Origin: Leptothrix sp. (in: b-proteobacteria)
Lineage (GTDB): Bacteria; Pseudomonadota; Gammaproteobacteria; Burkholderiales; Burkholderiaceae_C
DNA: 64,000 nucleotides
Reading direction: 5' to 3'
Assembly: GCA_013822685.1 (NCBI GenBank)
Contig: PNKV01000005.1
Coordinates: forward strand, 62,001-126,000
Shown here: one piece after another, positions 8,986-30,409 of the stretch
How positions within the stretch are numbered: the stretch's first letter is position 1
Layout: each line of letters starts with the position of its first letter
Translations under genes and position numbers: made by a program
The notes under the pieces: generated by a model
The model's input: the letters and a program-made list of their open reading frames with translations, nothing else
Database searches by the model: none
Told to the model about the DNA's origin: nothing

Positions 8986-9003
8986 GTGTGTTCCGGTCCA
9001 CGG

Positions 9004-10041
9004 TCAAGCGGGGATGAGGATGGCGCGGCCTGGGCGTTGCTGCGCAACGTGTGCAAAGGCTTGCTGGCCTTGGGCCAGGGGGACGCTCAGGCCAATGGGC
9101 AATTGCAGGCCGATGTTGGAGACCAGCAGCCCGTGCAAGGCGTCCAGGGCTTCAGCACTGGGTTGGAAAATGATCCAGGCATAGCGGGTGCCTCGGCCAG
9201 CTTGGGCCGTGACCAGGGCCTTCATGGCGGACCATGCCCGGTACACCTTCCACCCGCCCTTGATCCAGCCGTGGACATCCATGGTGTCCAGCAGCGGGTG
9301 CACGGTGGTGGCGTGGCCCATGGCGCCTGGTCTGAGGCGGCTGATCAAAGTCGCTTCGTCCTGCCAGACTGCGAAGTTGAGGCTGACGTCGTAGCCCGTT
9401 CCCAGTGTTGGCAATGCACGGCGCGTTCTGTCCACGACCACGGCGGCGCCCAGGTTCCTGCAGGTCTGCACGTGCTTGGTACTGCACACGGCCGTGACCC
9501 GCGCATCCCATCGGCTTAAAAGCTGCAAGGCCAGTTGCCCCAGGCCGCCGGAGGCGCCATGAACCAGCACCTCTTTGCCCTTGGCGTTGTGCTGATCAAG
9601 CCCCACGCTTTGAAGCGCCAGCCAGAGCGTGGTGAAGGTGTAGGGCAGGGCGGCAAGCTCTTGCGCGGTGAGGTTGGCGGGTGATGCGCGCAGGTGCTTG
9701 GCCTGGGCCAGAACATGGCTGGCATGGGCGCCCTGGGGGCCGGTGGGCAAGAGGCCGAACACGCGGTCGCCTGGCTTCCAGGTGGTGACGCCAGGACCGA
9801 CAGATTGGACAACCCCTGCCACGTCATTGCCCAAGGCCCTTGGAAAACTTGCAGCGCCTTTGAAGGCCAGGAGGCGCCGCCCATAGCCGGTCGAGCGCTT
9901 GGCATCAATGGGGTTGACCGACGTGGCCTCGACACGCACCAGCACCTGCTCTCGACCTGGTGCGGGTAACTCGCGTGGTCGAACTGCAAACCGGGCAGGG
10001 CTGCCAGGGGCAAGGCACAGCAATTCTTGCGCCGTGCTCAT
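9004..10041 (-). CDS. MDR-family NADPH-dependent (quinone/alcohol) oxidoreductase
   Basis: 345 residues of the medium-chain dehydrogenase/reductase superfamily. The N-terminal GroES-like half contains VRVEATSVNPIDAKRSTGYG, and the nucleotide-binding motif is VHGASGGLGQLALQL (about residues 161-175). The zinc-ligand cysteine cluster of alcohol dehydrogenases is absent, so it fits the quinone oxidoreductase/enoyl reductase branch. Its start overlaps the stop of the upstream FAH-family gene by four bases, and it precedes the flavin hydroxylase gene by 18 bases. It is therefore part of the catabolic operon, perhaps reducing a ring-cleavage intermediate. Confidence 0.9.
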   Translation of the reverse strand: MSTAQELLCLAPGSPARFAVRPRELPAPGREQVLVRVEATSVNPIDAKRSTGYGRRLLAFKGAASFPRALGNDVAGVVQSVGPGVTTWKPGDRVFGLLPTGPQGAHASHVLAQAKHLRASPANLTAQELAALPYTFTTLWLALQSVGLDQHNAKGKEVLVHGASGGLGQLALQLLSRWDARVTAVCSTKHVQTCRNLGAAVVVDRTRRALPTLGTGYDVSLNFAVWQDEATLISRLRPGAMGHATTVHPLLDTMDVHGWIKGGWKVYRAWSAMKALVTAQAGRGTRYAWIIFQPSAEALDALHGLLVSNIGLQLPIGLSVPLAQGQQAFAHVAQQRPGRAILIPA

Positions 10042-21510: not shown

Positions 21511-21577
21511 TAATCTGGCCGGCACACCGATTGCTCCTTGGTTTTTTCACCCCTTGGTGAGGATGACAGGAGCCGGT

Positions 21578-22231
21578 ATGGACAATCCTTTGGACCTGGA
21601 CGCGACCATCTCGCGACGCGATCTGCTGCTCGCGGGCGCCGCCTCTGCAGCGGCAGTCAAAATTCCACAGGCCAACGCCACAGAGCCAACGCCCACGCCG
21701 ACAGCGGTTTTGCCGACACCCCACGCCAAAGTCTCGCTGAACGTCAATGGCCAAGCCCATGACCTGACGCTCGACACGCGCACGACCCTACTGGATGCCC
21801 TTCGCGAGCACCTGCACCTGACCGGCACCAAAAAAGGCTGCGATCACGGGCAGTGCGGTGCCTGCACGGTGATCGTAGATGGCCGGCGCATCAATGCCTG
21901 CCTGACCTTGGCCGTGATGCACCCCGGCGCACAAGTCACCACCATCGAAGGGCTGGGCAATCCCCGCCAACTGCACCCGATGCAGGCCGCTTTCGTCAAA
22001 CACGACGGCTATCAATGCGGCTACTGCACGCCAGGGCAGATCTGCTCGGCCGTGGCGGTGGTGGATGAGATCAAGCGCGGAGTTCCAAGCCATGTGAGCG
22101 CCGACCTGACCGCGCGCCCGCTGTTGTCGGCCGAGGAGTTGCGCGAGCGCATGAGCGGCAACATCTGCCGGTGCGGGGCCTATTCCAACATCATTGATGC
22201 CATCACCGAAGTGGCTGGAGGTGCGGCATGA
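21578..22231 (+). CDS. paoA: aldehyde dehydrogenase/xanthine dehydrogenase family 2Fe-2S subunit, Tat exported (PaoA-like)
   Basis: 217 residues from the ATG at 21578, preceded by [21 protein letters not shown] is a twin-arginine signal. The plant-type 2Fe-2S cluster motif is [21 protein letters not shown], split here as CDHGQCGAC plus a later C, and the second helical-bundle cluster is CGYCTPGQI with CRC in [12 protein letters not shown]. This is the electron-transfer small subunit of a periplasmic molybdenum hydroxylase of the PaoABC/YagTSR type, which oxidises aromatic aldehydes. Its stop overlaps the next gene's start by four bases. The gene is divergent from the PepSY operon. Confidence 0.93.
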
Positions 22232-23178
22232 AGCCCTTCACGTATGAGCGGGTGGCATCGCCTGCAGAGGCTGCTGCTGCGGTGGCCAAGCACCCCGGCG
22301 CCAAGTTCATCGCCGGGGGCACCAATTTGCTGGACCTGATGAAGCTGCAGATCGAGACGCCCACGCACCTGGTGGACGTCAACGCCCTGGCCCTGGACAA
22401 GATCGAACCGACTCCCGATGGCGGCTTGCGCATCGGCGCCTTGGTGCGCAACACCGACCTGGCCGCCGACCAGCGCGTGCGGCGAGACCACGCCGTGCTG
22501 GCCCGCGCGCTGCTGTCAGGCGCATCAGGCCAGTTGCGCAATAAGGCCACGACCGCAGGCAACCTGCTGCAGCGCACGCGGTGCCCGTACTTTTACGACA
22601 CCGATCAGCCTTGCAACAAGCGCCTGCCCGGCAGCGGCTGCAGCGCCATCGGCGGCATCACGCGCCAGCATGCCGTGATCGGTGGCAGCAAGGCCTGCAT
22701 CGCCACCCATCCCAGCGACATGACGGTGGCCATGCGGGTGCTAGACGCGACCATTGAAACCGTGCGGCCCGATGGTGCGCAGCGCGTCATCCCCATTGCC
22801 GATTTTCATCGGCTGCCTGGCGATACACCCCACATCGAAACGGCGCTGGAACCGGGCGAGCTGATCACCGCCGTGGTGTTGCCCAAACCGGTGGGCGGCA
22901 CACACATTTACCGCAAGGTGCGTGACCGCGCCTCGTATGCCTTCGCGCTGGTGTCCGTGGCCACCATCGTGCAGCGCGATGGGTCGGGCAGGGTGGCCTT
23001 GGGCGGCATGGCGCACAAACCCTGGCGCATGGAGGCGGCCGAAGCCGCGATGCCGCGTGGCGCATCGGCGGTGATGGCGCAGCTGCTGGCCGGGGCGCAG
23101 CCCACTGAAGACAACGCATTCAAATTACTTCTGGCCGAGCGCGCTTTGGCCGCGGCCCTGCTTCAAGCGAGGACCTGA
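22228..23178 (+). CDS. paoB: FAD-binding subunit of xanthine dehydrogenase-family enzyme (PaoB-like)
   Basis: 316 residues. The FAD-binding PCMH fold is shown by [15 protein letters not shown] (about 27-41) and by [18 protein letters not shown] four-cysteine insert, RCPYFY, QPCNKR, SGCSAI and [10 protein letters not shown], is the extra 4Fe-4S site typical of PaoB and of 4-hydroxybenzoyl-CoA reductase-like subunits. It passes electrons between the 2Fe-2S subunit and FAD. It has no signal peptide of its own and would be co-exported with PaoA, as known for the E. coli enzyme. It is coupled to the genes on both sides. Confidence 0.93.
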
Positions 23179-23180
23179 CC

Positions 23181-25391
23181 ATGAAGTTCACCACGCCCGC
23201 CACCACCAACCCCATTGACCAGCTCAAGGTCATCGGCAAACCCACGGACCGCATCGACGGCCCGCTGAAAACATCGGGCCGCGCGCCTTACGCTTATGAG
23301 CGCCACGATGTCGCGCCCAATGCCGCCTACGGCTACGTGGTGGGCGCGGGCATCGCCAAGGGCCGCATCGCCTCCATGGACCTGAGCGCGGCCAGGACGG
23401 CGCCCGGCGTGATCACCATCGTGACCGCCCGCAATGCCGGCAAGCTGGGCAAGGGGGATTTCAACACCGCCAGGTTATTGGGTGGCCCAGAGATCCAGCA
23501 TTACCACCAGGCAGTGGTCTTGGTGGTGGCCGAGACCTTTGAACAAGCGCGCGCGGCGGCGCAATTGGTCCGCATCGACTACGCCCGCTCGCTTGGCAAG
23601 TTCGATCTGGCCGCCGAGAAGGCGTCCGCTCAGTTGCCCAAGCCCACGGCCTTCGCGGGCCCGCCCGAGTCCAAGGTCGGAGATTTCACCGGCGCCTATG
23701 CTGCTGCGCCCGTGCAGTTGGACGCCACCTACACCACGCCCGATCAATCGCACGCGATGATGGAACCGCACGCTTCAACCGCGGCCTGGAAGGGCGACAA
23801 GCTCACGGTCTGGACCTCGAACCAGATGATCGCCTGGAGCGTGGGTGATGTGGCCAAGACGCTGGGCATCCCCAAGGCCAATGTGCGGCTGGTTTCGCCC
23901 TTCATCGGCGGAGGCTTTGGCGGCAAGCTCTTTGTGAGGGCCGATGCGCTCCTGGCCGCCTTGGGCGCGCGGGCCGCGAGGCGGCCTGTCAAAGTGGCGC
24001 TGCAGCGGCCTTTGATGGCCAACAACACCACCCACCGGCCGGCCACGATCCAACGCATCCGCATTGGCGCCACGCGCGAAGGCAAGATCACCGCCATGGC
24101 GCACGAGGGCTGGTCGGGTGACTTGCCGGATGGGCAGGCCGAGACCGCCGTCAACCAGACCCGCCTGTTGTACGCCGGGGCCCACCGGCTGACGACCACC
24201 CGTTTGGCCGTGCTTGACCTGCCCGAAGGCAACGCGATGCGCGCGCCGGGCGAGGCGCCAGGGATGATGGCCTTGGAGATCGCGGTCGACGAAATGGCGG
24301 AAATGCTGGGCCTGGATCCGATTGACTTCCGGGTGCTGAACGACACGCAGGTCGACCCTGAAAAGCCGGGGCGGCCGTTCTCGCAACGTCGCTTGATTGA
24401 GTGCTTGCAGATCGGCGCGCAACGCTTTGGCTGGGGCCAGCGCAAGGCCAAGCCCGCCCAGGTGCGCGATGGCCGCTGGCTGGTGGGCATGGGGGTGGCC
24501 GCCGCCTTCCGCAACAACCTGGTGACCAAGTCGGGCGCGCGGGTTCGCCTCGACAGCAAAGGCCTGGTCATCGTCGAAACCGACATGACCGACATTGGCA
24601 CGGGTTCTTACACCATCATTGCCCAGACCGCTGCCGAAGTGATGGGCGTGCCCTTGAACCAAGTGGCCGTGCGGTTGGGCGACTCGGCTCACCCGGCGTC
24701 GTCAGGCTCGGGCGGGCAATGGGGCGGCAACAGCTCCACATCGGGCGTCTACGCGGCTTGCATGAAACTGCGCGAGGCGGTGGCCAAGAAGCTGGGCATC
24801 ACCTCACCCGACGTGGTGTTCGCCGATGGCCTGGTCAAGGCGGGCGATCTCAACATTCCGCTTGGCGAAGCGGCGGGCGCGGAGGGCCTGGTGGTTGAAG
24901 ACTTCATCGAGTTTGGCGATCTGGACAAGAAGTACCAGCAATCGACGTTCGGCGCGCACTTCGTGGAGGTGGGCGTGGATGCTGTCACGGGCGAGATCCG
25001 GGTGCGGCGCATGCTGGCCGTTTGTGCCGCCGGCCGCATCCTGAACCCCAAGAGCGCACGCAGCCAGGTGATCGGGGCCATGACCATGGGCGTTGGCGCG
25101 GCCTTGATGGAGGAGCTGGCCGTGGACAAGCGCCATGGCTTCTTCGTCAACCACGACCTGGCAGGCTACGAGGTGCCCGTGCACGCCGACATCCCCCACC
25201 AGGACGTGCTTTTTCTGGACGAGACCGATCCCATCTCCTCACCCATGAAGGCCAAGGGCGTGGGTGAATTGGGCATCTGCGGGCTCGCCGCCGCCGTGGC
25301 CAACGCTGTTTACAACGCGACCGGAATTCGCGTTCGCGACTACCCCATCACGCTCGACAAGTTGCTGGACCGCCTGCCCCTGGTCACTTGA
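23181..25391 (+). CDS. paoC: molybdenum cofactor-binding catalytic subunit, xanthine dehydrogenase family (PaoC-like)
   Basis: 736 residues, matching PaoC (about 730). Family blocks are PFIGGGFGGKLFVRAD (cofactor loop), MRAPGEAPGMMALEIA, TDIGTGSYTIIAQTAAE and the catalytic glutamate in KGVGELGICG near the C terminus. It should hydroxylate aldehydes to acids at a molybdopterin-cytosine-dinucleotide site. No gene for the PaoD/XdhC-type cofactor-insertion chaperone follows here, so that must be elsewhere. The 3' end overlaps the convergent methyltransferase gene by eight bases. Confidence 0.94.
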   Translation: MKFTTPATTNPIDQLKVIGKPTDRIDGPLKTSGRAPYAYERHDVAPNAAYGYVVGAGIAKGRIASMDLSAARTAPGVITIVTARNAGKLGKGDFNTARLLGGPEIQHYHQAVVLVVAETFEQARAAAQLVRIDYARSLGKFDLAAEKASAQLPKPTAFAGPPESKVGDFTGAYAAAPVQLDATYTTPDQSHAMMEPHASTAAWKGDKLTVWTSNQMIAWSVGDVAKTLGIPKANVRLVSPFIGGGFGGKLFVRADALLAALGARAARRPVKVALQRPLMANNTTHRPATIQRIRIGATREGKITAMAHEGWSGDLPDGQAETAVNQTRLLYAGAHRLTTTRLAVLDLPEGNAMRAPGEAPGMMALEIAVDEMAEMLGLDPIDFRVLNDTQVDPEKPGRPFSQRRLIECLQIGAQRFGWGQRKAKPAQVRDGRWLVGMGVAAAFRNNLVTKSGARVRLDSKGLVIVETDMTDIGTGSYTIIAQTAAEVMGVPLNQVAVRLGDSAHPASSGSGGQWGGNSSTSGVYAACMKLREAVAKKLGITSPDVVFADGLVKAGDLNIPLGEAAGAEGLVVEDFIEFGDLDKKYQQSTFGAHFVEVGVDAVTGEIRVRRMLAVCAAGRILNPKSARSQVIGAMTMGVGAALMEELAVDKRHGFFVNHDLAGYEVPVHADIPHQDVLFLDETDPISSPMKAKGVGELGICGLAAAVANAVYNATGIRVRDYPITLDKLLDRLPLVT

Positions 25392-26286
25392 CCACAGGGA
25401 AGTGGGGCACGGCCAGCAAATCCAGGTGCCCGATTTCGAGAGACAGCAAACCATGGTGGATGTCGGCCGCTCGGTCGGCCAGCCAACTGGACACGGCGGG
25501 CTTGCAGGAAGGATCCGTTTCTGTGGCCACGGTGGCCGCTTCCTGGGCCATGTTCAGCAGCATGTCGCTGTGTTCCCGGCCAATGTGCCAATCGCTCGAT
25601 TGGGTGCTGACCTGGTAGCCCGCAACGGCGAGATGGGCCGCGAGGTAGGGCGTTGCCCGCACGCCCAGCGATGGGCCAAAGCCCTTTTCACCGCCTTGAT
25701 GGGACAAGAAGGCATCGGCGATGAGTTGGTCGGCAGGCCTGGTGGGAAACCATGTGCGCCGGCCATCCACGGTCAAAGAGGCTAGCAAAGGGCGTGGTGT
25801 CCGCACCAGCAGTGCGCTCAGCCGATCCAGCCAGGCGGCCGACACCAGGTCCAGAAATGCGGTGGTGACGAGGCCATCGCATGAGGCCAGATCGATGTCT
25901 TCGAGGTCGCGCGCCAGATCGAGCTGCTGGCTGCGAACCAGCCAGCGGGCAGGGCCCGCGTGGATGGCGAGGCCACCTTCGTGATCATGGCAGTGCCATC
26001 GTTGCCCGCTCGCCCACCGGGTGATCTCGGAGCGCTGGGCTGCGAGTAGCAGGGGGTCATGATCGACCAACCGCCATTCCTGGTCTTTTTCCAGCAAGGG
26101 CGCCAACGCCCGGAAGTTAGCGCCCGAACCCGAGGCCAGGTCAACGATGCGAAAGGCGGCGGGGTTCTGTGGCCCCAGCGCTGCCCGGAATCCAAGCGCG
26201 AGCGATGCACTGCGCGCGGCGAGATCGAAGGGTTCGCGTTGGCGCAGCCAGTCTGCGCTGAAACCGGTACTCGCCGCGTCACTCAT
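25384..26286 (-). CDS. class I SAM-dependent methyltransferase
   Basis: The ATG at 26286 overlaps the stop of the glycosyltransferase gene by four bases, giving 300 residues. SAM-binding motif I is IVDLASGSGANFRAL (about residues 47-61), then the acidic residues of motif II in WRLVDHDPLLL and motif IV in CDGLVTTAFLDLVSAAWLD. I cannot assign a substrate. It is the last gene of a tightly coupled six-gene set with RibD-like and PTPS-like members, so O- or N-methylation of that pathway's small-molecule product is the simplest reading. Confidence 0.82.
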   Translation of the reverse strand: MSDAASTGFSADWLRQREPFDLAARSASLALGFRAALGPQNPAAFRIVDLASGSGANFRALAPLLEKDQEWRLVDHDPLLLAAQRSEITRWASGQRWHCHDHEGGLAIHAGPARWLVRSQQLDLARDLEDIDLASCDGLVTTAFLDLVSAAWLDRLSALLVRTPRPLLASLTVDGRRTWFPTRPADQLIADAFLSHQGGEKGFGPSLGVRATPYLAAHLAVAGYQVSTQSSDWHIGREHSDMLLNMAQEAATVATETDPSCKPAVSSWLADRAADIHHGLLSLEIGHLDLLAVPHFPVVK

Positions 26287-27332
26287 CGGCTCACCTTGTT
26301 CGAGGCCGCCACCCAAGCTTGCACGGCGCTGTCCCAGTCAGGAAGGGCGCTGGCGGCTTGCTCCGCTGCGTTTGACAGCCGAGCGCGCAGGGCGCCATCG
26401 GTCAGGGTCTGCTGAAGGGCATCGCGCAGGGCGGGCAGATCACCCGGCGCAACGACCAAGGCGGCGCCAGCAGGCAGCGTGGCCGCGATGGCGCAGGCCG
26501 TGGTGGCAATGACGGGAAGGGCATGTGCAAGCGCCTCGGCGAAGACCATGCCGTAGCCCTCATGGTAGGACGGCAGCACGAAGATGTCGGCGCGCTGGTA
26601 GGCCTCCGTCAGCCGCTGATCGGGCTGTTCTCCCAGAAGCGCGATGCGGTTTGTCAGGCCATGGGTGGCGATGCGCTCTTGAAGCGCGGCCGAGGCGGCG
26701 GGGTCTCTCGTCACGCTACCGATGCAGGTCAGTTGCCAGTCAAGGTGGCGCAGTTGGGCCAGGGCGTCGACCAGCAGCAGATGGCCTTTGCGCGGCGTGA
26801 CGCTTCCAACGGCCAGCAATTGCAGCGGCCCCTTGCTTTTGGCTTGGCGGATGGTGGTGGGGCGATGCGTACCCGGGGTGACCACGGCGACACGATCCGC
26901 TGGAAGACCCGCTGCCCGGAGCGCTTGGGCAGTGTGTTCGCTGGGGCAGATGGCGCCTTTCAGACATGGCCAAAGCTCTGCCTCAATCTTTGCGTAGTGA
27001 ATAGCGTTCGCGGTATCCAGTCCGGTTTCCAGTGACAGCGGATGATGGATGAGGCCCACCAGGTTCAGTCGGCTTGCTTGGTCCTTCAAGCAGTCGGCCA
27101 AGCCAGGCAGCGCCAGTCCATCGATGATGACCGTGCTGTGGTCCGGCAAAAGGGCAAGTGCGGCGGCGGCGAGTGTTCGCGTGGGCTCATCTGCTTGCGG
27201 ATACCGGCCCGGCAGCTCGACCACATCGACCACCTGGCCACGCACACGCAGGCCTTCAATGATGTGCCGGTCGTACAGGTAGCCACCGGTGAGCTGATTA
27301 AGCCGCCCGGGGACCAGAAAAGCCAGCGCCAT
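26283..27332 (-). CDS. glycosyltransferase family 4 (GT-B)
   Basis: 349 residues. The N-terminal domain has GGYLYDRHIIEGL, typical of GT4 acceptor domains. The C-terminal nucleotide-sugar domain has LAVGSVTPRKGHLLLVDAL and the E-x7-E motif HEGYGMVFAEALAHALPVIAT. It shares one base (TGATG) with the stop of the PTPS-like gene, so the two are translationally coupled. GT4 enzymes include the biopterin glucosyltransferase of cyanobacteria, so linking a sugar to a pterin-like product is a reasonable but untested idea. Confidence 0.88.
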   Translation of the reverse strand: MALAFLVPGRLNQLTGGYLYDRHIIEGLRVRGQVVDVVELPGRYPQADEPTRTLAAAALALLPDHSTVIIDGLALPGLADCLKDQASRLNLVGLIHHPLSLETGLDTANAIHYAKIEAELWPCLKGAICPSEHTAQALRAAGLPADRVAVVTPGTHRPTTIRQAKSKGPLQLLAVGSVTPRKGHLLLVDALAQLRHLDWQLTCIGSVTRDPAASAALQERIATHGLTNRIALLGEQPDQRLTEAYQRADIFVLPSYHEGYGMVFAEALAHALPVIATTACAIAATLPAGAALVVAPGDLPALRDALQQTLTDGALRARLSNAAEQAASALPDWDSAVQAWVAASNKVSR

Positions 27333-27736
27333 CAGCGCAGCGCGCCTTCGAAGCTCGCCCAGGCCACCGGCGATTCACGCAAGACGACCCGAAGCGATGC
27401 CAGCTCGCCTGCCGTGCCGGGCCCCACGGCGCCCTCGGCCACGCGGGCTTTCAGCCGGGCAAAGATTTCACCGGCGAGCAACTCGGTGGTCGTGTTGCGG
27501 CCTTTGAATTGCGGAAGCTCATCCAGGTTTTTGTAATTGAATTCGCCGAGCACCTCGCGCAGCAACTGCAGCGCCAGCCCGATGTCGCACACCAGCCCGT
27601 TCTGGTCCAGCGCCGGGCGGCGGAAATCAATCTCGACGTTGTAGGTGGCGCCATGGAGTTGCTGGGCCGGGCCGAAAATTTCGCCGCGGAAGCTGTGGGC
27701 AATCATGAAATGATCAGAGACGGCAAGGCTGTACAT
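27332..27736 (-). CDS. 6-pyruvoyl-tetrahydropterin synthase (PTPS/QueD) homologue with altered active site
   Basis: 134 residues of the T-fold PTPS/QueD family. The first zinc histidine is at H14 (FMIAH), and the HGHNY motif appears as H28-G-A-T-Y, so the third zinc ligand is replaced by A30. The catalytic Cys expected four residues before H28 is A24, and the LDH histidine is missing (NYKNLDEL). The pterin-anchoring glutamate (E121, in LRES) is kept. Fold assignment is secure, but PTPS or QueD activity is unlikely; a changed reaction or a binding role is inferred. It lies 13 bases after the RibD-like gene. Confidence 0.83.
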   Translation of the reverse strand: MYSLAVSDHFMIAHSFRGEIFGPAQQLHGATYNVEIDFRRPALDQNGLVCDIGLALQLLREVLGEFNYKNLDELPQFKGRNTTTELLAGEIFARLKARVAEGAVGPGTAGELASLRVVLRESPVAWASFEGALR

Positions 27737-27749
27737 GTTGGTGTTGATT

Positions 27750-28535
27750 TCAAAGAGAGGGGATGAGGCCGAAATCGCATTCGATCATGGTGTCGTCGCC
27801 CAGCAGGAAACGACGCGTGCGAGGGCGCAGGCTGAGCGCCAGATCGTGGATTTCTGGCAGCACGAGGCTGGGTCGGCCGGAGCCGAGGATGACCGGGGCC
27901 ACGGTGATCTGCAAGCGATGAAGCGCACCTGCGGCCAGAAAGCGGGACACGGTGATGCCGCCGCCTTCCACGAACAGCCATGACAGCCCGCGCAAGGCCA
28001 GGATCCGACGGATTTCGAAGGGGTCAAGGCCATGTTGGCCGCGTGGCACGGGGACCACCTCGGCCTGGCCCCATTGCGCCTCAGCGCCGGCTTTGTCGGC
28101 GGCCACCAGCAGGAGGGTGGCCGCGCTGCCATCGCAAAAAACCCGCTGGCTGCCATCGAGCCGGTGCTCCGGGTCGACGATCACCCGCACGGGGTTGTCG
28201 CCTGCGCACAAGCGCACCGTGAGTTGTGGGTCGTCGTGCAGGATGGTGTTGGCGCCCACGAGCACTGCATCCGCGATGGCCCGCATGCGGTGGGTGTGCA
28301 CCAGGTCTTCTTCCCCACTGAGCCAGCGCGACATGCCGCAGGTGGTGGCAATGCGGCCATCAAGGCTCTGCGCCAGGTGGCCCACCACGTAAGAGCCTTT
28401 TTGTCGCATGGCGCAGAGCGGGCCGTAAAGCCTGTGGACCAGCGAGCCGCCATGGACCGCACCGCTGTTGTCTTCACCGCGAAGCACGGCCTGCCAGTCG
28501 GCTTCATCCCCTCGTGGGGAAGTCGTGGTCGTCAT
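27750..28535 (-). CDS. RibD C-terminal-domain (dihydrofolate reductase-like) reductase
   Basis: 261 residues from the ATG at 28535, which overlaps the upstream stop by four bases. The reductase fold of RibD is marked by [13 protein letters not shown] (about 51-63), [35 protein letters not shown] (quoted in two parts: [19 protein letters not shown]) and [13 protein letters not shown]. The N-terminal deaminase domain of true RibD is absent. The enzyme would reduce a ribosylaminopyrimidine or pterin-like ring with NADPH. Being next to a PTPS homologue and a glycosyltransferase, it probably acts in a separate pathway from riboflavin synthesis. Confidence 0.87.
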
Positions 28536-29539
28536 TTGGCGCAACGGCCAGCGGAAGGCCCGGCGTAATCGATGCGGTGGCACAAGGTGGTGTCCAGGCT
28601 GGATGCCGACAAACGGGCGAGCACCGTCGGCAAGGCGGCAAAGGGCGAGGCATCGGTGATCAAGGCATCCAGCGCAGAGTCGCTCAGCAATGACAAGGCC
28701 AGCTCGAAGCGCCGGCGGTGACTCCAGCGAGCACGCTGTGCGGTGGCCACCTGGCCCACTTGTGAACTTTTGAGCGTGAGCCTGCGCGCGTGGAAGGCAC
28801 CGCCGAGCGGCACGTTCACCTGGCGCTCGCCATACCAGCTCAGCTCCAGCACCGTGGCCTCGAAGGCAGCCAGATCCAGGGCGGTGGCCAGGCCTGAAGA
28901 TTGGCCGCTGGCATGGATCACGAGATCGGCTTCATGGCGGGCGGCGTCGGGCAGGGCAAAGTCCACATGCAGGTGCGCAGCGACGGCGCGCCGGGCCTCT
29001 TGCGTGTCCACCAACTGGACTTGACAGCCCGGCAGTCGGGTCGCCAGCCATGCCACCAGCATGCCCACGGCGCCCCCGCCGACCACGGCAATGCGGTCGC
29101 CCACACGCGGAGCGGCATCCCACAGCGCATTGACGGCCGTCTCCATGTTGGCCGCGAGCACGGCCCGCGCTGGCGGCACGTCCGGGGGCAGCACGTGCAC
29201 GGCCGTGGCGGGCACCACATAGTGGGTTTGATGCGGGTACAAGCAAAACACCGTGCGCCCCAGAAGATCATCAGGGCCTTGCTCGACCAGGCCAACGCTG
29301 TTGTAGCCGTACTTCACTGGTGCCGGGAAATCGCCTGACTGGAACGGCGCGCGCATGCGCTCGAACTCGCTGGCAGGCACCTCCCCACGAAAAACCAAGG
29401 TTTCCGTGCCTCGGCTGATGCCACTGTGCAGGGCCCTGACCAGCACTTGATCGGGCCCTGCTTCCGGCAAGGTTTCGGTGAGCAACTCGGCGTGGCCGGG
29501 TTCGGTCAGCCAGCAGGCTTGGGCAAGGGTATCGGCCAT
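28532..29539 (-). CDS. zinc-type alcohol dehydrogenase-like MDR protein of the pterin-like cluster
   Basis: 335 residues with the MDR layout: GroES-like part with [19 protein letters not shown], then the nucleotide-binding loop [15 protein letters not shown] (about 151-165). The catalytic Cys-Gly-x-Asp zinc site of alcohol dehydrogenases is replaced by SGISRGTE, and no structural four-cysteine lobe is seen, so zinc-independent catalysis is likely. The family is uncharacterised. The start follows the acyltransferase stop directly (TGA then ATG), and the stop overlaps the RibD-like start by four bases, placing it firmly in the operon. Confidence 0.83.
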
Positions 29540-30409
29540 TCAAGCCACCGATCCGTGCGCCAAGATGAGCTGCCGCATCTGTGCCGTGACGCAAGCGCCG
29601 AGTGCCTTCGCATCACCTTGGTCGGCTTTCATCGGCGCGCCGAATGTCACCCTGGCGACCAGGTCTCGGTAACGGGGCAAGGCCACCTGCAATGCGGCTG
29701 CCAGCTTCTCCTTGTGGTGCGCCGTGCGGCGCAACAGGGTCAGCGGATGCCGCTGGGCGGCAGGTGAGATGACGTGGCTCACCAGCGCCGGCACGAACTG
29801 CGTTTGGGGTGCCAGGCGAGCAAACAAGGCATAGCTGTTGGACCAGTTCTGCAAAGAGGCCGACGCTCGCGCTGCGCCAAAGGTGGCGGGATCAGGCTCG
29901 ATCTCTCCGGCCGGGAAGGTCAGCAAGGCGCCACCTTCTTTCAGGTGTTGGGCGCCGGCGCGAACCACGGCCATGCGACCAGACTCTTCCTCGGGCAAGA
30001 AGATCAATTGCCGCGCAACGTGGGGCAAGGCGCGCAGGAAAGGGCGATCCAGGGCGATCACCCGCAAGTCAGGGCGCGATGCCAGGCTGCAGAAAAGCGC
30101 CACCGTGTCGGTCATGCCAGGGTGGTTGGCCAGGATGAACACAGGGCCCTGAGCCGGGATGTTTTCCAGGCCTGTGGTGCGCACGCCAGCCGTCATTTGG
30201 CCAATCAACCAGGCGCTGCCTTGCGCCAGGCCATGGTCGCCCACACGGTTGTCGAACTCATTCGCCATCTGGGCAAAGCGGCTGGCCACGGGCCGAAACA
30301 ACTGACGCAAAGGTGCGCATTGAAAGCGCAACAAGCCGGTCGAATCCAGCAAATCGGCGATGTTGATCTCCGTGAGCGTGTCCACTAACGATGGCGAGGC
30401 GGCAGGCAT
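29540..30409 (-). CDS. 1-acyl-glycerol-3-phosphate acyltransferase-like (PlsC) protein
   Basis: 289 residues. The H-x4-D catalytic motif is H96-PGMT-D101 in ILANHPGMTDTV, and the substrate-binding motif appears as LLTFPAGEIEPD (about 156-167). There is no clear signal or multiple membrane helices. It transfers an acyl chain from acyl-ACP or acyl-CoA to an alcohol. It is the first gene of the six-gene set, so the final product may carry a fatty-acyl group, or the gene may only share the promoter. The promoter would be in the 151-base gap to the divergent RNA ligase gene. Confidence 0.87.
   Translation of the reverse strand: MPAASPSLVDTLTEINIADLLDSTGLLRFQCAPLRQLFRPVASRFAQMANEFDNRVGDHGLAQGSAWLIGQMTAGVRTTGLENIPAQGPVFILANHPGMTDTVALFCSLASRPDLRVIALDRPFLRALPHVARQLIFLPEEESGRMAVVRAGAQHLKEGGALLTFPAGEIEPDPATFGAARASASLQNWSNSYALFARLAPQTQFVPALVSHVISPAAQRHPLTLLRRTAHHKEKLAAALQVALPRYRDLVARVTFGAPMKADQGDAKALGACVTAQMRQLILAHGSVA

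Follow-up and report, generated by a model that had tools for sequence, protein, structure and literature searches.

The 6-pyruvoyl tetrahydropterin synthase (PTPS) family, COG0720, includes a named subfamily, PTPS-IV, whose signature is FGPAQ (passages of PMC5445326, citing Phillips 2012). For a node of 561 PTPS-IV sequences, the same passages describe a gene neighbourhood with PF00925 and RibD_C. The function of the subfamily is in print only as a remark on unpublished data that connects it with cofactor F420. The subfamily, its PF00925/RibD_C link and this remark are already known. Here we analyse a six-gene locus that encodes a protein assigned by its sequence to PTPS-IV, in a 64,000-nucleotide stretch of DNA (the window) from Leptothrix sp. 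(GenBank assembly GCA_013822685.1, contig PNKV01000005.1, positions 62,001 to 126,000). The six genes lie on the minus strand at 25384-30409 of the window (Table 1). We read the locus as the local copy of a widespread GTP-derived pathway to a membrane-attached, glycosylated and methylated small molecule of the pyrimidine or pterin type, and give this reading slightly less than an even chance.

The cluster has in common with the printed PTPS-IV neighbourhood the FGPAQ signature and, in its fuller copies, the association with PF00925 and RibD_C, but it also carries an MDR dehydrogenase, a GT4 glycosyltransferase, a methyltransferase and lipid enzymes, none of which is named in the PTPS-IV passages of PMC5445326. 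There PF00925 is labelled FolE2, whereas in Pfam it is GTP cyclohydrolase II (GCH II). In the window RibD adjoins PTPS-IV, and PF00925 is found outside the operon. The described pterin glycosides (biopterin glucoside, cyanopterin and limipterin) likewise combine a glycosyltransferase with a GTP-derived bicycle from a PTPS-family protein; they use GCH I and a catalytic PTPS (passages of PMC3546692), whereas this cluster has GCH II or GTP cyclohydrolase III (GCH III), RibD, a non-canonical PTPS-IV and membrane end enzymes. A creatininase-family protein that takes over from a cyclohydrolase forming formamidopyrimidine (FAPy) is also known, in the BrbF/ArfB step (passages of PMC9478397). The creatininase of the cluster, whose activity is putative, differs in sitting with PTPS-IV, MDR, GT4 and methyltransferase, and it matches the NCBIfam ArfB model weakly (38 bits, cut-off 180). 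In Streptomyces coelicolor, the solved structure 3d7j (SCO6650) fits the PTPS-IV profile (E 8e-63), and Streptomyces loci carry a RibA of the Met type, described below; in the window genome, RibA is instead of the Tyr type and encoded at another locus, and the operon lacks a creatininase. SCO6655, which from its gene number presumably lies near SCO6650, is reportedly a GTP cyclohydrolase II that stops at FAPy, in work by Spoonamore and colleagues in 2006. No paper describing the whole gene set was found in the open-access literature searched, a scope outside which most subscription journals fall; the passages seen did not mention the acyltransferase form, the sister cluster or the alternative entry enzymes described below, and those of PMC9608346 and PMC3489674 concern ordinary riboflavin genes. 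A single pathway would tie together the PTPS-IV subfamily, the FAPy-forming cyclohydrolase reported for S. coelicolor and the functionally unassigned structure 3d7j.

The earlier note on this DNA had described a coupled six-gene locus, and re-reading the sequence reproduced all genes and all five junctions exactly. The acyltransferase stop codon (TGA) is followed immediately by the MDR ATG, MDR and RibD overlap by 4 bp (ATGA, with the RibD start at 28535), a 13-bp gap separates RibD from PTPS, PTPS and GT4 overlap by 1 bp (TGATG), and GT4 and methyltransferase overlap by 4 bp (ATGA, with the methyltransferase start at 26286). Pfam scores were 85.7 bits for the PTPS gene (PF01242) and 103 bits for the GT4 gene (PF00534).

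Recurrence of the set was examined at several scales. Genome codes below begin with G (G000 carries the window) and locus codes with L. In a survey of 300 genomes of the order, where a strong match was defined as 55% identity or more across almost the full length, 14 genomes had any match and nine a strong one, the window genome included; seven of the nine belong to one genus. The PTPS profile matched 32 of 349 Pseudomonadota genomes, 22 of them strongly (at least 183 bits) and the window genome among these, which was the only one with a match of the nine genomes sampled from its own family. Twenty of the 22 (the window genome and G492 were omitted) had been selected by PTPS only and were scanned with profiles built from other loci. 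Near PTPS-IV, MDR was found in 20/20, GT4 and methyltransferase each in 19/20 and RibD in 18/20; CDP-alcohol phosphatidyltransferase, an MdoH-like GT2, a flippase-like protein and RibA each occurred in nine, cytochrome b561 in six and creatininase in four. The ten weak PTPS matches, which are QueD-type proteins with CARLHGH or CARMHGH, served as a control set: MDR, methyltransferase, RibD and CDP-alcohol phosphatidyltransferase were absent from all ten stretches, three of which are only 6-10 kb long, and a weak GT4 match was present in two.

A larger collection of 96 loci was drawn from named genomes, plasmids (8 of 27 records inspected, plus 3 of 14 haloarchaeal ones) and relatives. Eighty named loci are the best 80 of 565 MDR relatives, where MDR is present by construction. 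With six loci lacking MDR or PTPS and 16 lacking a 6-kb flank removed, 74 were counted: GT4 and methyltransferase were each present in 72, RibD in 58, CDP-alcohol phosphatidyltransferase in 55, the flippase-like protein (PF03706) in 39, RibA and creatininase in 33 each, a sulfatase-like protein in 19, GT2 in 17, FkbM in 13, cytochrome b561 in 10 and the acyltransferase in four, the last with a profile built from those same four sequences. Named carriers include Pseudomonadota, Actinomycetota, Acidobacteriota, Gemmatimonadota and haloarchaea; in Methylosinus trichosporium OB3b the cluster is plasmid-borne. The same set in such distant genomes indicates that its packing is more than chance, and chance packing was set aside in view of the 74 loci, the 20 PTPS-selected genomes and the controls without partners. 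The gene-neighbourhood check proposed in the earlier note thus came out in its favour. Its six-gene unit proved too narrow: the genes travel together, but the core is MDR-PTPS-GT4-methyltransferase plus RibD, and fuller copies also include RibA, a creatininase-family protein, CDP-alcohol phosphatidyltransferase and a flippase-like protein. Since 22 of the 349 Pseudomonadota genomes carry the set, a common metabolite may have gone unseen.

The distribution also bears on another reading, in which an antibiotic-like pyrimidine nucleoside or glycoside is secreted or stored and the membrane enzymes modify or export it. The cluster is patchy and partly plasmid-borne, a beta-lactamase-family serine hydrolase occurs in 10 of the 96 loci (all Streptomyces), and SCO6655 appears in a list of genes expressed contrary to predicted flux, of which the majority, according to the authors, rise in stationary phase (passages of PMC2853524). 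Conservation of the core from Pseudomonadota to Streptomyces and haloarchaea would, however, be unusual for a lineage-specific antibiotic, and we consider this reading rather improbable.

Some loci depart from the usual arrangement. A divergent sister cluster in G140, a genome of the window's order (L219, G140:C28, 6902-11923), contains RibD, MDR, a PTPS of the HSHHY type as in Haloarcula, methyltransferase, CDP-alcohol phosphatidyltransferase and GT4. The same genome carries a remnant (L032, G140:C105, 7416-8537) in which the first 30 PTPS-IV residues run directly into the GT4 frame, with no MDR, RibD or methyltransferase within the 17 kb examined. In Haloarcula marismortui NC_006395.1 the PTPS match at 104289-104662 is split in two, and the gene table, itself incomplete, shows no PTPS gene there; this record may hold a broken or frameshifted gene.

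The FGPAQ signature is present in 89 of 91 cluster PTPS sequences, the window's included, and the window protein scores 43.8 bits with the NCBIfam QueD model against a cut-off of 89.25. The 91 sequences were compared with Escherichia coli QueD (alignment with PDB 4ntk agrees), which has zinc ligands, catalytic Cys, Asp and His, and a substrate Glu. Two zinc positions, His 15 and His 30, are kept in 91/91, while His 32, the second His of HGH, is replaced by Ala in 90/91. At the catalytic positions Cys has become Ala in 90/91, Asp has become Asn in 76/91 and His has become Tyr or Phe in 82/91. The substrate Glu is kept in 91/91. The motifs of QueD (PTPS-I), PTPS-II and PTPS-III (CxxxHGH, CxxxxxHGH and ExxHGH, with catalytic Cys, Asp and His) are accordingly missing from PTPS-IV. 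Since the substrate Glu is kept and the catalytic residues are lost, PTPS-IV probably binds a 2-amino-4-oxopyrimidine or pterin, and to judge from these residues the PTPS/QueD mechanism is ruled out for it. The database name 6-carboxytetrahydropterin synthase (queuosine), given to PTPS-IV relatives, is unsupported by the sequences.

These residues cut both ways for the idea that the cluster makes a soluble tetrahydropterin glycoside analogous to biopterin glucoside, limipterin or cyanopterin, with PTPS-IV and MDR acting as PTPS and sepiapterin reductase do, GT4 adding the sugar, and the acyltransferase or CDP-alcohol phosphatidyltransferase having a side function. A glycosyltransferase together with a GTP-derived pterin supply is what pterin glycoside pathways have (passages of PMC3546692), and the Glu that reads the pterin edge is invariant; a PTPS-IV without the Cys, Asp, His and one zinc ligand of PTPS/QueD fits poorly. 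Evidence from the entry and end of the pathway, below, also bears on this idea.

The window RibD contains only the RibD_C domain (PF01872, 123.4 bits, cut-off 24.1); the deaminase domain that a bifunctional RibD joins to its reductase domain was not found in it. The best solved relative of the cluster RibD is 6p8c, named 2,5-diamino-6-ribosylaminopyrimidinone 5'-phosphate reductase, and a second is 2azn, labelled putative 5-amino-6-(5-phosphoribosylamino)uracil reductase. The window RibD is likely to reduce 2,5-diamino-6-ribosylaminopyrimidinone 5'-phosphate. The "ring reduction" that the earlier note assigned to it has to be corrected, as RibD-type enzymes are established to reduce the ribosyl side chain and not the ring. 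In a tree, 85 cluster RibD sequences were split from 11 housekeeping RibD of the same order with SH-aLRT 100, though the program warned of long branches meeting at this split.

Extra supply of riboflavin, folate or queuosine from rib/que paralogues is hard to sustain. RibD, and RibA in the fuller copies, are riboflavin-type enzymes, as this explanation would have it. Yet the cluster RibD lacks the deaminase domain and stands apart from housekeeping RibD, RibB, RibH and RibE are missing from the six genes, the PTPS falls below the QueD cut-off and has lost CxxxHGH, and such a supply would have no use for GT4, methyltransferase or lipid enzymes. We regard it as very unlikely; the separate RibD clade, the PTPS-IV signature and the lost catalytic residues speak against ordinary rib/que paralogues, which the earlier note had named as part of an outcome that would undo its proposal.

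The closest relative of the window RibD is that of L034, followed by those of Zoogloea copies of the GT2-type cluster; the window MDR, unlike RibD, groups with copies of the CDP-alcohol phosphatidyltransferase type. RibD between MDR and PTPS was seen in the window and L034 among the tabulated loci. The window operon may be a mosaic.

Other enzymes near the clusters point to the same entry. The switch residue of cluster RibA (n = 38) is Met in 19, His in two and Tyr in 17; in the 2006 work by Spoonamore and colleagues this residue is said to decide between FAPy and the deformylated product. Creatininase is nearby for 21/21 Met or His RibA but for 8/17 Tyr RibA (Fisher p 1.5e-4, kinship ignored), and in L100 creatininase and RibD are fused in a single protein. 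In Haloarcula halophila, GCH III lies beside CDP-alcohol phosphatidyltransferase, MDR, PTPS and methyltransferase. Archaeal GCH III is unrelated to GCH II and known to yield FAPy, and the creatininase-family BrbF deformylates this very intermediate (passages of PMC9478397). The RibD relatives, the link between Met RibA and creatininase, the L100 fusion and GCH III indicate the same intermediate, and entry is likely to be via FAPy/2,5-diamino-6-ribosylaminopyrimidinone phosphate. For a soluble glycoside this is unfavourable: clusters were seen to carry GCH II or GCH III as their cyclohydrolase (GCH I had no separate search), and reduction of the ribosyl group by RibD would block pterin closure by Amadori rearrangement.

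In the window genome, RibA is a Tyr-type PF00925 copy away from the operon (G000:C16, 239.5 bits), and the one creatininase is a distant copy at C7 with a cluster-profile score of 118 bits (238-383 for creatininases in clusters). Stand-alone RibA is found in 99/300 genomes of the order and in 8/9 strong carriers (Fisher p 8e-4, kinship ignored); in the remaining carrier a RibA fragment lies at the end of a contig. When the separate RibA copies of seven carriers were compared, with half of the longer protein required to align, no conserved neighbourhood was seen; this comparison would miss mis-started genes, and the RibA frames themselves did not pair.

A role of PTPS-IV in F420 synthesis is stated by Zallot et al. 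2016, with unpublished data cited there (passages of PMC5041015). A gene annotated as an F420-dependent PPOX-class oxidoreductase lies near the L018 cluster and has relatives in five other Streptomyces loci. Haloarchaea and Streptomyces make F420. Against such a role, eight carriers were searched for CofD (PF01933) and three gave no match: G000 (93.6% complete), G060 (97%) and G104 (100%). The other five carriers matched, but E. coli does too, which makes PF01933 an unspecific marker of F420. An F420-type PPOX reductase is also a candidate replacement for RibD; among the 97 loci searched, the L018 protein occurs in six, all Streptomyces, and the one from Haloarcula in its own locus only. We give an F420 function almost no credence.

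At the other end of the pathway, 88 of the 94 loci on the MDR tree have a membrane end enzyme: CDP-alcohol phosphatidyltransferase in 58, GT2 in 20, both in six and the acyltransferase in four, with none in six. The motif DGx2ARx8Gx3Dx3D of the CDP-alcohol phosphatidyltransferase is intact in 76/76. The window acyltransferase matches PF01553 (31.3 bits, cut-off 23) and, as in L034, L035 and L043, is the profiled gene directly before MDR. On the tree it arises by two changes inside a 14-row clade (marked 99*), the other rows of which have CDP-alcohol phosphatidyltransferase (nine) or none (one), and in the tabulated loci it never occurs alongside CDP-alcohol phosphatidyltransferase. The acyltransferase is a lineage-specific substitute for CDP-alcohol phosphatidyltransferase or the MdoH-like GT2 at the end position of the operon. 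Such an exchange at one position suggests a common role, membrane attachment. CDP-alcohol phosphatidyltransferase and GT2 also tend to exclude each other (both in four loci, p 4e-7), an effect that shrinks to suggestive when phylogeny is considered; the GT2 profile is lax (the window genome's own MdoH scores 535, against 801-1015 in clusters), so loci with both may be over-counted. The flippase-like protein (PF03706), YceI and cytochrome b561, which recur near clusters, also point to the membrane. That 88 of 94 loci have a membrane end enzyme is again hard to square with a soluble glycoside, which on the whole of this evidence we hold to be unlikely. In L053 (4658-7063) and L040 (7439-11155), CDP-alcohol phosphatidyltransferase and a sulfatase-like domain share one frame; in a Pfam check of L053 only, the sulfatase part was below the cut-off.

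The MDR dehydrogenase reached Pfam models only below their cut-offs (ADH_zinc_N 21.4 bits, cut-off 31.8) and is BchC-like at 60 bits, far under the cut-off of that model. In the window and seven aligned relatives, SxGTE and [KQ]YGY replace the Cys and GHE motifs, and the usual catalytic zinc ligands are absent at the positions (Cys and His-Glu) that hold them in zinc-dependent alcohol dehydrogenase. The database name zinc-binding alcohol dehydrogenase for MDR relatives is unsupported by the sequences. At E 0.01 the window methyltransferase matched nothing in Pfam or NCBIfam. Alignments of 28 and 35 sequences gave the consensus DLGxGTGSN, which in the window reads DLASGSGAN, and the best PDB match of its AlphaFold model (pLDDT 93.9) was 3mgg, a methyltransferase (E 9e-12, TM-score 0.56 by query length).

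From the gene set, its conservation, the active-site changes and the alternative entry and end enzymes, all of which are observed, we infer every reaction and the product as follows. GTP cyclohydrolase II would open GTP to FAPy/2,5-diamino-6-ribosylaminopyrimidinone 5'-phosphate; it would be supplied from elsewhere in the window genome and from within the cluster in other taxa, or be replaced by archaeal GCH III. Where the cyclohydrolase halts at FAPy, a creatininase-family formamidase would act. The reductase-only RibD would then convert the ribosyl to a ribityl group without deamination, so that the 2-amino group is retained. PTPS-IV would grip the 2-amino-4-oxopyrimidine edge via its invariant Glu and, with the zinc-free MDR, would modify the side chain or close a second ring. 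GT4 would add a sugar and the methyltransferase a methyl group, and a membrane enzyme would link the product to lipid, by acylation here and by phosphatidyl transfer elsewhere. How the later steps are ordered is guesswork. The pyrimidine- or pterin-derived, glycosylated and perhaps lipid-linked product of the earlier note stands as the best reading, its identity, lipid bond and pterin ring staying conjectural.

Several points weigh against the proposed membrane-attached product. RibD is not nearby in 16 of the 74 loci. L024, one of the eight plasmid loci first inspected and excluded from the 96, is an orphan: its PTPS-IV-like gene (FGSAQ, 9001-9396, on a Streptomyces plasmid) lies beside a MEKHLA-domain gene with no profiled partner. 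The link between Met RibA and creatininase ignores phylogeny, and creatininase also occurs beside Tyr RibA. The RibA encoded in trans in the window genome is weak evidence, because stand-alone RibA is common in the order. The end-enzyme swap is no more than suggestive after phylogeny (six independent pairs, median p 0.125), and an MdoH-like alternative end enzyme speaks for no lipid anchor. The lack of a match for CDP-alcohol phosphatidyltransferase (L039 query) in the window genome, which speaks for the swap, comes from a search that lacked a positive control genome and used an assembly 93.6% complete.

A further-reaching claim, which we think doubtful, is that a lipid-anchored, glycosylated and methylated ribityl-pyrimidine or pterin would be a new class of membrane cofactor or signal in bacteria and haloarchaea. 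Unrelated GTP cyclohydrolases would supply its FAPy, lineages would have exchanged the enzyme that attaches the lipid, and the partners cytochrome b561, YceI and flippase-like protein would hint at a redox function in the membrane.

Table 1. Features of the PTPS-IV operon in the window
Feature	Position	Strand	Basis or motif
Acyltransferase, first gene of the operon	29540..30409	-	PF01553 type; NHPGMTD and FPAG motifs
MDR dehydrogenase	28532..29539	-	BchC-like; GISRGTE and KYGY motifs
RibD_C reductase without deaminase domain	27750..28535	-	Pfam; tree; solved relatives
PTPS-IV T-fold protein (6-pyruvoyl tetrahydropterin synthase family, subfamily IV)	27332..27736	-	Pfam; FGPAQ signature
FGPAQ signature of PTPS-IV, residues 21-25	27662..27676	-	Sequence; definition in passages of PMC5445326
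GT4 glycosyltransferase	26283..27332	-	PF00534
Class I S-adenosylmethionine (SAM)-dependent methyltransferase	25384..26286	-	Consensus motif; AlphaFold model

The 3' end of the operon overlaps a convergent molybdenum-hydroxylase gene by 8 bp (25384-25391). This gene belongs to a three-gene molybdenum hydroxylase set at 21554-25391 of the window that is possibly unrelated to the operon; one or more genes for molybdenum hydroxylase-related subunits also lie close to L034, L038, L053, L075, L090 and L106.

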